This document shows, piece by piece, positions 30,195 to 32,307 of a DNA stretch of 35,986 nt. The translations under genes and the position numbers were made by a program. Within the stretch, counting starts at the first letter, position 1; each line of letters starts with the position of its first letter. Location of the stretch: contig JAJXUK010000022.1 in NCBI GenBank assembly GCA_021782915.1, positions 1 to 35,986 on the forward strand, in the 5' to 3' direction. The notes beneath the pieces are model-generated. The model ran no database searches, was not told the DNA's origin, and saw nothing but the letters and a program-made list of their open reading frames with translations. The stretch is from Actinomycetes bacterium. Lineage in GTDB: Bacteria > Actinomycetota > Acidimicrobiia > Acidimicrobiales > RAAP-2.

Positions 30195-30225
30195 CTGAAC
30201 GATACCGGCTCGTGCTCGCTAACCT
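30195..30225 (+). promoter_or_regulatory. Promoter of sodN
   Basis: A weak -35 CTGAAC (30195-30200) and a -10 TAACCT (30220-30225) lie 19 bases apart. They predict a leader of about 30 bases that holds the sodN Shine-Dalgarno sequence. Confidence 0.35.
30199..30204 (-). promoter_or_regulatory. -10 element TATCGT of sodX
   Basis: TATCGT ends eight bases before the sodX ATG. It overlaps the -35 region of the opposite sodN promoter, so the two divergent promoters are interleaved. No Nur-type operator (TTGCAA-like repeats) was seen here. Confidence 0.4.
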
Positions 30226-30247
30226 GCGTGAGAGGAACCGCACCCTG

Positions 30248-30255
30248 AGGAAAGG
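30248..30255 (+). promoter_or_regulatory. Ribosome binding site of sodN
   Basis: AGGAAAGG seven bases before ATG 30263 fixes the start, ahead of an open frame that extends upstream. Confidence 0.6.
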
Positions 30256-30262
30256 CGACACC

Positions 30263-30679
30263 ATGTCCGTGATCTCTCGCTTCGCAGCCCTGCTCGACGC
30301 TCACACGACGCCCCTGAGCGTGTCGGCCCACTGCGACCTGCCCTGCGGCGTCTACGACCCCGCCCAGGCTCGCATCGAGGCCCAGTCGGTCAAGGCGATC
30401 ATGGAGAAGTACCACGCCTCACAGGACCCGGACTTCCGGGTGCGCGCCACGCTCATCAAGGAGGAGCGCTGCGAGCTGGTCAAGCACCACCTGTGGGTGC
30501 TCTGGACCGACTACTTCAAGCTCGAGCACCTCAAGGCGTTCCCGAACCTGCACGACCTGTTCTGGATGGCCACCAAGTCCGCCGGCGACGCCAAGAAGAC
30601 GAACGACGTCGTAGTCGCCGAGCGACTGCTGAGCGAGATCGACGCCATCGCCGAGATCTTCTGGGAGACCAAGAAGTAG
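30263..30679 (+). CDS. sodN: Nickel superoxide dismutase precursor
   Basis: The protein has 138 residues. The nickel hook HCDLPCGVYDP starts at H23, so removal of residues 1-22 by SodX would give a mature 116-residue four-helix protein with His1, Cys2 and Cys6 as nickel ligands. The leader is longer than the 14 residues of the Streptomyces enzyme. The rest (EKYHASQDPDF, KEERCELVKHHLWVLWTDYFK) matches the family. It removes superoxide in the cytoplasm. The stop is one base from the stop of the convergent DUF4097 gene, leaving no room for a terminator between them. Confidence 0.97.
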   Translation: MSVISRFAALLDAHTTPLSVSAHCDLPCGVYDPAQARIEAQSVKAIMEKYHASQDPDFRVRATLIKEERCELVKHHLWVLWTDYFKLEHLKAFPNLHDLFWMATKSAGDAKKTNDVVVAERLLSEIDAIAEIFWETKK

Positions 30680-30680
30680 C

Positions 30681-31709
30681 TCAGCTCGTCACGCGATCGA
30701 TCAGGATGTCGCCCGAGACGGTCGTGACCCTGATCATCGAGAGTTGATCGCTGCGCGACGCGGCCTCGTCCAGACCGTCAAGGTCGATCCGGGACTCCAA
30801 GTGACCCGAGACGGTGCGCCCGGCGACGTCGATGGCCAGGCCCTCGAGGACGCTCACGCGCACGTCGCCCGAGGCCGCGTTCACCGAGAGGTCGCTGGGC
30901 GACAGGGCGGTCACCGCCACGTCGCCCGACGCGCTCGCCACGTCCGTGCGCGCCGCGGCCCCCGCGATCATGACGTCGCCCGAGGCGACGCGACAGCGCA
31001 AGCGCTCACGCACGGTGCCAGTCGAGACGTCCCCGGAGGCCGTGCGCACGTCGAGGCTTGAGAGCTCGTCGCTCGCCTGCACGTCGCCCGAGACGCTAGA
31101 GACCTCGACCTCGCCCAGGGCCGCCTCCAGCCGCGTGTCGCCCGAGACCGTCGTGACCTGCAGGTCGCTGCCGAGGGGCAGGACGAGCACGACGTTCACG
31201 TCGTCGCGCTCACGCCAGTCGCTGAAGGTCATTCCGCGCAGTCCGCGTCCGGCCCGCGGGAGGGTCTCGACGAGCAGGGTGCCCCGCGCGGCGTCGTACT
31301 CCACGCGCGCGCGCCCGGGCGCCTCCGCACTCGCGGAGCGATCGGTGCCCAGGCGCACGGCGAGCTCCGTGGCCTTTCCGGCCAGGACGGTGACGTCCCC
31401 GCTGCGCGTGGCGACGTGGACCGAGAGCTCGCCGCGTGCCTCGAAGCGCTCGTCGCGCTGGTGGCGAAAGGACGGCACGGCGCGGTCCCGACCGGCTCGA
31501 GACTCGAAATCGGACATGACCTTCTCCTTTGGTTGAATGACGCGGTAGCGCCGAGAGCGACTCGCGCGGCCCACGACACGAGCCCAGAGGTCCGCGTCAC
31601 TCGCCGCCTCCTTGCCGAGGGCCTCGAAGTTCAGCGTGCGCCGGCGACGCTCGCGGTAGCCCGGCTCGCACGGCCCGTGGACCGTGTGAAAGATGCTGCG
31701 GCTGTACAT
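30681..31709 (-). CDS. DUF4097-type repeat protein (beta-solenoid)
   Basis: The protein has 342 residues from ATG 31709, or 278 from an in-frame ATG at 31517; each start has its own good Shine-Dalgarno sequence. The C-terminal two thirds consist of repeats with an SGD(V/T) turn, nine in all (RSGDVTVL, VSGDTRLE, VSGDVQAS, ASGDVSTG and so on), mostly 18 residues apart. This is the DUF4097 pattern, expected to fold as a right-handed beta-helix; its function is unknown. The first 64 residues, if translated, are basic and match no family I know. It follows the ribbon-helix-helix gene, a pairing common in Streptomyces. No signal peptide or membrane segment is seen. Confidence 0.85.
   Translation of the reverse strand: MYSRSIFHTVHGPCEPGYRERRRRTLNFEALGKEAASDADLWARVVGRASRSRRYRVIQPKEKVMSDFESRAGRDRAVPSFRHQRDERFEARGELSVHVATRSGDVTVLAGKATELAVRLGTDRSASAEAPGRARVEYDAARGTLLVETLPRAGRGLRGMTFSDWRERDDVNVVLVLPLGSDLQVTTVSGDTRLEAALGEVEVSSVSGDVQASDELSSLDVRTASGDVSTGTVRERLRCRVASGDVMIAGAAARTDVASASGDVAVTALSPSDLSVNAASGDVRVSVLEGLAIDVAGRTVSGHLESRIDLDGLDEAASRSDQLSMIRVTTVSGDILIDRVTS
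31518..31530 (-). promoter_or_regulatory. Internal Shine-Dalgarno sequence for a shorter DUF4097 product
   Basis: AAAGGAG (31530-31524) lies six bases before the in-frame ATG 31517, which would start the protein just before the repeat domain. Confidence 0.5.
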
Positions 31710-31734: not shown

Positions 31735-32190
31735 CTAGGCCCGCCCGCGTCCTCGCAGTTGGCGAGGCCCGCTCCAGCCCACGCCGGGCGCGTCATCGCG
31801 CACCGAGCGCTCCAGGGCCCGAACGATCCACGTGTTCACCGACGAGCCCACACCGGAGGCCAGGGCCTCGATGGCCTCCTTCAGCTCGTCGCTGAGACGC
31901 AGCGCGATGCGTGCCGAGTAGGTGGCGCTCGAGGGCACCTCCTCGGAGCCCGAGGGGGCCAGTCGCGCCAGGCGCACCTCGTCGCCCTCCACCTGCAGGG
32001 CCAGAGGAGTCGACGCGCTCAGGTTGTACTCCTGGACCACGCCGTTGAGCGCCTCGAGCAGTCGCTGCTGCAACGTCGGCGCCAGCGTGCTGCCCAGGCG
32101 CTCGATGAGGGCGCCGCTCTCGGCGCTGGCGAGCGAGGCCACGTTCTCGAAGTCGCTGCGCACACTCGCGATGTAGTTTGATATCAACAT
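31735..32190 (-). CDS. HicB-like ribbon-helix-helix protein
   Basis: The protein has 151 residues from ATG 32190. Residues 1-75 are mostly helical (NYIASVRSDFENVASLASAE); residues 91-131 form a ribbon-helix-helix unit, ARIALRLSDELKEAIEALAS with SSVNTWIVRALERSV. Streptomyces proteins of this build are annotated as HicB-family antitoxins and sit before a DUF4097 gene, as here. No HicA toxin gene is present, so antitoxin action is doubtful; autorepression is more likely. Start: ATG 32190 fits the Streptomyces N-terminus (Tyr at residue 6) and lies eight bases after TAGTAT; an earlier ATG at 32211 would be upstream of that -10. Palindromes cover the start. Confidence 0.8.
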   Translation of the reverse strand: MLISNYIASVRSDFENVASLASAESGALIERLGSTLAPTLQQRLLEALNGVVQEYNLSASTPLALQVEGDEVRLARLAPSGSEEVPSSATYSARIALRLSDELKEAIEALASGVGSSVNTWIVRALERSVRDDAPGVGWSGPRQLRGRGRA

Positions 32191-32206
32191 TGATATCAAT
32201 ACTACA
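32172..32206. repeat. Tandem palindromes TTGATATCAA flanked by TGTAGT/ACTACA, putative operator
   Basis: Two identical 10-base palindromes, TTGATATCAA at 32178-32187 and 32190-32199, are separated by two bases. Outside them lie TGTAGT (32172-32177) and its complement ACTACA (32201-32206). The array covers the -10 edge and the first codons of the ribbon-helix-helix gene. Ribbon-helix-helix proteins usually bind adjacent short palindromes, so autorepression is the simplest reading. The block is AT-rich in otherwise GC-rich DNA. Confidence 0.65.
32199..32204 (-). promoter_or_regulatory. -10 element TAGTAT of the ribbon-helix-helix gene
   Basis: TAGTAT ends eight bases before ATG 32190 and overlaps the edge of the palindrome array by one base. 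The predicted mRNA has almost no leader. Confidence 0.45.
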
Positions 32207-32307
32207 CACATGCGACATCAAAATGCACGCACTACGGATCGTGGTCGCTTTCTCGCTGGTCAGCCTGACGAACGCGTCACGCGTGCGGGCTCGTGGCGCC
32301 GCGGGGC

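Follow-up and report, generated by a model that had tools for sequence, protein, structure and literature searches.

The window, by which we mean the whole stretch of 35,986 nucleotides analysed here, carries a gene for a ribbon-helix-helix (RHH) protein and, downstream on the same strand, a gene for a DUF4097 (Toastrack) protein, and two identical palindromes lie at the start of the first of these. The features are listed below; positions relative to the start codon count the A of the ATG as 0.

30681..31517, minus strand: DUF4097 (Toastrack) gene, 278 aa from an ATG preceded by AAGGAGAAGG
31521..31709, minus strand: small conserved coding stretch of 63 aa that separates the RHH gene from the DUF4097 gene and shares the reading frame of the latter, with the motif RRxTLNFExxGGE, here RRRTLNFEALGKE
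31738..32190, minus strand: RHH (Arc/CopG-type) gene, 151 aa, with its start best placed at the ATG 32190..32188 and its stop codon at 31735-31737
32179..32186, minus strand: box D, TGATATCA, +4 to +11, inside codons 2-4 (TTG ATA TCA)
32191..32198, minus strand: box C, TGATATCA, -8 to -1, abutting the ATG
32199..32204, minus strand: candidate -10 element TAGTAT, from which transcription would begin on the ATG or only a few bases away from it
32213..32220, minus strand: box A, TGATGTCG, a 7/8 match at -30, 22 bp upstream of box C

The list of open reading frames begins the RHH gene with an ATG at 32211, and a GTG at 32163 was considered and rejected, as an ATG 27 bases upstream of it is common to nearly all close relatives. 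The homologue alignment begins at this same ATG and reads M-L-I-S-N-Y-I, and we regard the ATG at 32190..32188 on the minus strand, between the palindromes, as the best placed start. The proximal palindrome would therefore form codons 2-4 (Leu-Ile-Ser), and the distal one would end at the start codon.

The palindromes themselves are exactly where the preliminary description had put them: TTGATATCAA occurs on the plus strand at 32178-32187 and 32190-32199, with 12 bp from centre to centre. A search of the window for TTGATATCAA with one mismatch allowed gave these two matches against 0.01 expected, none of 100 shuffles reached two matches, and the pattern of the pair as a whole was matched once in the window against 0 expected. 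The rest of the organism's own genome (2,146,391 bases in 84 contigs, 97 % complete) contains no further copy of TTGATATCAA; TGATATCA-N4-TGATATCA with up to three mismatches had no match in the genome except here, and a version of the box pair spaced at 11 bp had none in it. Box A is a weaker third box, outside the coordinates of the preliminary description, and the slot for a box B between A and C is degenerate in the window (GTGTAGTA, 4/8). The palindromes had also been said to be framed by TGTAGT and ACTACA, and both hexamers are indeed present, at 32172-32177 and 32201-32206, but the frame is not conserved. We rejected it as part of the site, since none of the four closest relatives (L032-L035) has TGTAGT ahead of the start; ACTACA falls within the codons that specify Asn-Tyr-Ile.

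The names first given to the two genes are borne out by Pfam, the RHH protein matching HicB (PF05534, E 4.8e-5, 23.6 bits with a cut-off of 21) and its partner DUF4097 (PF13349, E 4.5e-19, 69.2 and 70.3 bits with a cut-off of 22.9). The match to PF05534 is limited to 38 residues in the RHH part, namely 96-133 of the 158-aa frame or 89-126 in the numbering of the 151-aa protein; outside them the RHH protein has no Pfam match. A profile of 32 relatives (32 of the 44 proteins collected at that stage) matches RHH chains of solved structure: 6ajm (DUF1778, E 1.5e-4), AmrZ 3qoq (E 1.9e-4) and Arc 1b28 (E 0.015). The hallmark of RHH proteins is a strand in which polar residues at alternating positions face the DNA, followed by a helix-turn-helix with a conserved S/N turn. 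Among the 32 aligned relatives R94, R98, S117 and N119 are invariant. Residue 96 varies between A, S, T and N. The protein is laid out as an N-terminal helical region and beta-hairpin (in a weak model), a linker, the C-terminal RHH domain and the tail RQLRGRGRA; the AlphaFold single-chain model, of low confidence (mean pLDDT 62.6, pTM 0.41), lacks the beta-strand. The tail (window positions 31738-31764, minus strand) is conserved in type: a large share of the window's clade has RQLRG(K/R)GR(A/S), and many other RHH proteins have endings like TGYxxx or TGW(A/V)R; it is conceivable that it serves as a docking peptide for DUF4097.

Homologues of the RHH protein were collected from several overlapping samples of genomes. 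With an E-value cut-off of 0.001 they were found in 33/99 genomes of the genus, 14/298 of the order and, in the phylum, 29/296 with a single protein as query and 88/396 with a profile, many of these last being RHH-only matches. With a cut-off of 1e-15 they were found in 57/247 genomes of the class, in 122/344 and 56/111 genomes of two other actinobacterial groups, and in 0/13 genomes of one further order; weaker matches from the class sample and from the group of 111 were taken in only partly. The statement that the gene pair is common in Actinomycetota holds, with 57/396 phylum genomes at E <1e-15 and the 122/344 just given for one class, and Streptomyces is also among the holders of the pair. 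When close relatives served as query, 18 named loci were found; most come from Acidimicrobiaceae or Acidimicrobiales metagenome-assembled genomes, many of whose isolate names contain 'palsa' or 'bog', and they include one record titled Acidobacteriota and one titled Actinomycetes. In all, 302 loci were entered, of which 299 matched and three had no match at E 1e-6; after 42 identical proteins and four loci without a usable start (L026, L049, L087, L134) had been dropped, 253 distinct homologues were left. Three of those four (L049, L087 and L134, from one genome) do have the array boxes described below, with an RHH gene whose N-terminal part fails to align (the match begins at profile position 36) and no start found, and this gene is evidently a shortened or decayed copy.

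Comparison across these homologues makes clear that the two palindromes are the most conspicuous portion of a more extensive conserved element. It had been suggested that similar palindromes be sought before homologous gene pairs, and at least two boxes of the form TGRYRYCA are present in register before and over the start codon in 219/253 distinct homologues and at least three in 162/253, the array being missing in 34/253. A box was counted where it fitted TGRYRYCA (8 bp) at 7/8 or better. As the register count tolerated a displacement of one base for individual boxes and of -3 to +1 for the array as a whole, the spacing is quoted from a free scan. In an earlier subset of 197 genes, 173 had at least two boxes, against 10/985 at shifted offsets and 23/985 in dinucleotide shuffles. 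The scan free of spacing (213 genes) gave 482 exact boxes upstream against 4 in the coding sequence over as many positions, and the boxes cluster at -29/-30 (123), -7 (108), -18 (107), +4 (18) and -51 (17). Boxes at greater distances from the gene thus also occur, at -51 and -61/-62; the fourteen most frequent positions do not include -40, where a box would run into the -35 hexamer. From one exact box to the next the step is 11 bp in 175/302 instances, followed by 22, 21 and 12 bp, and 8 bp is missing from the fifteen most frequent steps. The first base of the start codon is also the last base of a box in 147/179 array genes. What had been described as two sites suited to side-by-side occupancy is thus upheld as regards conserved sites in register, but the pair is the end of an array, usually of three boxes or more, and not a two-site operator. 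Likewise, the 12-bp spacing is true of the window but is a local variant of the usual 11-bp step, arising because the box of the window and its closest relatives is shifted by one base there.

Box D, which is largely confined to the window's clade, lies within coding sequence, where codon choice can be compared. In the 32 genes of that clade, Ile at codon 3 is ATA in 29/29 cases against 1/157 Ile codons from codon 8 on (Fisher p 4e-33), Ser at codon 4 is TCA in 25/31 against 33/399, and Leu at codon 2 is TTG in 21/26 against 58/577; L012, which has Ala at residue 96 and no array, was left out of this test. There is no general effect of the 5' end, because only 1/24 Ile codons at codons 5-15 of the same clade is ATA. 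The bias at codons 2-4 therefore indicates that selection acts on the DNA, selection at the protein level alone being insufficient to account for it.

The region upstream has features of a promoter that would begin transcription at the gene itself. TTGAC is found between -40 and -28 in 83/173 array genes, and the looser TTG form in 129/173, while a sequence resembling a ribosome-binding site precedes only 1/219 array genes against 20/34 array-less genes. A scan of the window's own promoter for a consensus promoter gave no match. We infer that the mRNA is probably leaderless, starting at or near the ATG. The reading of the palindromes as an RNA element found no support, an Rfam scan of the window at gathering thresholds having given no match.

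Which protein occupies these boxes is not told by the palindromes themselves, and boxes resembling TGACGTCA are recognized by several classes of protein, so that an unlinked regulator might bind here while the RHH protein controls something else. The distribution of the sites speaks against this. Within the genus the array is nearly restricted to the RHH gene: 26/33 RHH-bearing genomes match the array pattern, and on comparison of coordinates every one of these matches is at the RHH gene, whereas only 6/66 genomes without the gene match, each at one place and with one mismatch. The 7/33 RHH-bearing genomes that miss the 11-bp pattern include that of the window, in which the spacing is 12 bp. 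Around the six matches no RHH or DUF4097 relative was found within 2-3 kb. One genome of the genus without the RHH gene has TGATATCACATAGATATCA (L263:1500-1520) about 30 bases before another gene (MSQNIQPVNEP...), whose product we take to resemble an SPFH/slipin-type membrane protein, and this is perhaps another operator of the array type; three more such genomes (L254, L256 and L264) have in common TGATGTCACAGTGTTATTA, around base 1500 and with one mismatch to the pattern.

A second argument against an unlinked regulator is that the type of box follows a residue of the RHH strand. Residue 96 should, by analogy with Arc and MetJ as we understand them, face the bases. When the majority third letter of the boxes is set against this residue in 218 of the 219 array genes (L236 lacks the strand), Asn goes with G (TGGY) in 54/59 genes, and Ala, Ser or Thr with A (TGAY) in 151/159 (Ala 32/32, Thr 87/89, Ser 32/38), which leaves 13/218 exceptions. 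Counts of A and G over half-sites in the set of 197 genes are 162:4 for Ala, 264:62 for Thr, 100:60 for Ser and 34:189 for Asn, and Ser is to be regarded as mixed because its half-sites divide in this way. Ala at 96 together with an array represents a single clade. The best tree allows six independent pairs of Asn and non-Asn genes, all of them concordant in 194/300 draws, with one tie in 90/300, two ties in 16/300 and none opposed; on well-supported branches only one pair is left, concordant in 172/200 pairings, tied in 26 and opposed in 2, and in the preceding smaller set an opposed pair appeared in 2/300 draws. The phylogenetically independent support for the link between residue 96 and the box is therefore thin. 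Taken together, the covariation of residue and box, the near-exclusive location of the sites at the RHH gene and the reach of the profile to known RHH chains make the RHH protein the probable binder, in agreement with the prediction first made from the palindromes, and binding by an unlinked regulator is very improbable.

Our preferred interpretation, to which we would assign a probability of roughly 0.8, is that the RHH protein represses its own gene through an operator array laid over a leaderless promoter, and that the two palindromes are two of the predicted boxes of this array. Dimers of the RHH protein would bind side by side and presumably cooperatively, each with its paired beta-strands (ARIALRL) in one of a series of major grooves that follow each other at intervals of roughly a helical turn. 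The stretch occupied in this way would extend from about -35 in the promoter to codon 4, and RNA polymerase would be kept off and the RHH-DUF4097 operon held low. A protein with Asn at residue 96 would be expected to prefer TGGCGCCA over TGATATCA. A different possibility is that the RHH protein, once on the array, activates transcription or serves as no more than a roadblock by way of the box in the coding region; box D, under selection at the DNA level in codons 2-4, and the boxes at -51 and -61/-62 are what such a role might call for. The commonest boxes, however, those at -7, -18 and -29/-30, overlie the inferred -10 element, spacer and start, where bound dimers should exclude polymerase, and boxes A-C are general while box D is largely a feature of the window's clade. 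Repression is the likelier effect, and we consider a role as activator or roadblock highly improbable.

The second gene of the putative autorepressed operon is an almost constant companion. In 245/253 homologues a DUF4097-like gene follows in the same orientation, no more than 600 bases downstream, the eight without one including L005 and L164, where little downstream sequence was covered, and in L012 the two proteins are fused. Against the LiaG model (an NCBIfam equivalog) the DUF4097 protein of the window scores 48.5 bits, below the cut-off of 285. The motif RRxTLNFExxGGE of the small stretch between the two genes, or a near form of it, is present in the window and in 13/18 same-genus relatives examined; the stretch is closed by its own stop in L036, L040, L043 and L044, and that of the window has no Pfam match. 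The next gene in the window, at 30212-30679 on the plus strand and convergent with the DUF4097 gene, encodes a nickel superoxide dismutase. Five distinct relatives (L032, L033, L034, L035 and L058; L070, L071, L073 and L076 are second copies of L032-L035) also have a close homologue of it in the vicinity of the pair. In two Streptomyces plasmid regions the order is RHH, DUF4097, ABC ATPase and ABC permease, and one of these plasmids (L269) has a single good box. The accessible part of one report mentions an RHH-Toastrack-ABC operon in Actinobacteria and proposes Toastrack proteins as intracellular scaffolds for sub-membrane signalling (PMC11237479). A table of another gives an antibiotic cluster that opens with genes for a 177-aa protein of unknown function and then a 278-aa DUF4097 protein (PMC9866976); that these are the same RHH-DUF4097 pair is a guess on our part.

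An operon of two genes, the RHH gene first, with a candidate autoregulatory array also recalls a toxin-antitoxin module, in which the RHH protein would be the antitoxin, the DUF4097 protein the toxin and the array an operator with conditional cooperativity. Some plasmid records are in fact annotated 'toxin-antitoxin system HicB family antitoxin', and a Streptomyces-type query (L107) has homologues in 43/72,556 plasmid records. Yet the partner is a beta-helix (Toastrack) domain and not HicA, the HicB match covers only the 38 residues of the RHH part, the genes that come next in both Streptomyces plasmid regions are an ABC ATPase and permease, the window's own protein has no homologue in the plasmid collection, PADLOC gave no match and neither of two queries found a phage homologue in 50,697 records. 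We consider a toxin-antitoxin module very unlikely. A phage origin found no support either, given the same absence of a match in the phage records.

Returning to autorepression, the DUF4097 protein, a predicted cytoplasmic scaffold, would most likely feed a signal from the membrane or envelope back to the RHH protein. It is tempting to go further and to envisage a widespread actinobacterial stress circuit of a kind not yet described, in which an RHH repressor reads, at its own promoter, an array of 8-bp boxes set at helical-turn intervals and reaching into the coding sequence, by a code of one residue (Ala at residue 96 with TGAT; Thr and mostly Ser with TGAY; Asn with TGGY), and a Toastrack sensor from the adjacent gene releases the repressor from the DNA on a stress signal from the membrane or from a linked ABC exporter; we put this forward tentatively, as a possibility that is rather less than even.

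Autoregulation by RHH proteins through repeated sites is already known, and the methionine repressor MetJ is itself an RHH protein, the met boxes being contiguous tandem palindromes of 8 bp with the consensus AGACGTCT, in which Lys23 and Thr25 of MetJ read G and A. The present array resembles that system in its 8-bp boxes, in that the Thr-type boxes (TGACGTCA) and the met box both have an inner GACGTC, and in the strand, where RITL parallels KITV of MetJ. It differs in its 11-bp step with 3-bp linkers, in place of contiguous boxes, in that no sequence relation to MetJ is shown and no co-repressor is known, and in its putative control, as far as seen, of one gene and no regulon. The accessible part of a study of MetJ, by comparison, has it controlling its own gene among others in Escherichia coli and binding an 8-bp box (PMC2775130). 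With Arc, AmrZ and the DUF1778 antitoxins the protein shares an RHH domain detectable by profile, but here that domain is C-terminal, behind the helical region and the weakly modelled beta-hairpin, and the partner is DUF4097. The likeness to HicAB is the short RHH match to PF05534, and the difference is a partner that is DUF4097 in 245/253 homologues and not HicA; the core of HicB is, in the accessible text of one report, a derived RNase H fold (PMC2701414). Records of the pair, among those listed, are labelled 'hypothetical protein' or 'HicB family antitoxin', and the latter label is misleading for these RHH proteins. The RHH-DUF4097-ABC-ABC order in the two Streptomyces plasmids is reminiscent of the PSP and Lia envelope-stress operons with Toastrack genes, although no ABC gene follows the pair in the window, unlike the Toastrack operons in the accessible part of PMC11237479. 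The same part of that report, which mentions RHH-Toastrack operons, describes no operator, start-codon overlap or recognition residue. This accords with the earlier remark that no described function or operator was known for the pair, and no operator was found in the literature searched (subscription papers and preprints lie outside it); a text search for TGATATCA gave nothing relevant among the matches listed.

The array thus gives the RHH-DUF4097 pair a concrete function that can be tested, and anchors the start codon of the RHH gene. The natural variants of operator and residue offer a means of working out how RHH proteins read DNA, and the Toastrack partner, together with the ABC context in Streptomyces, provides a way into the question of how a membrane-stress or export function may be regulated in actinobacteria.
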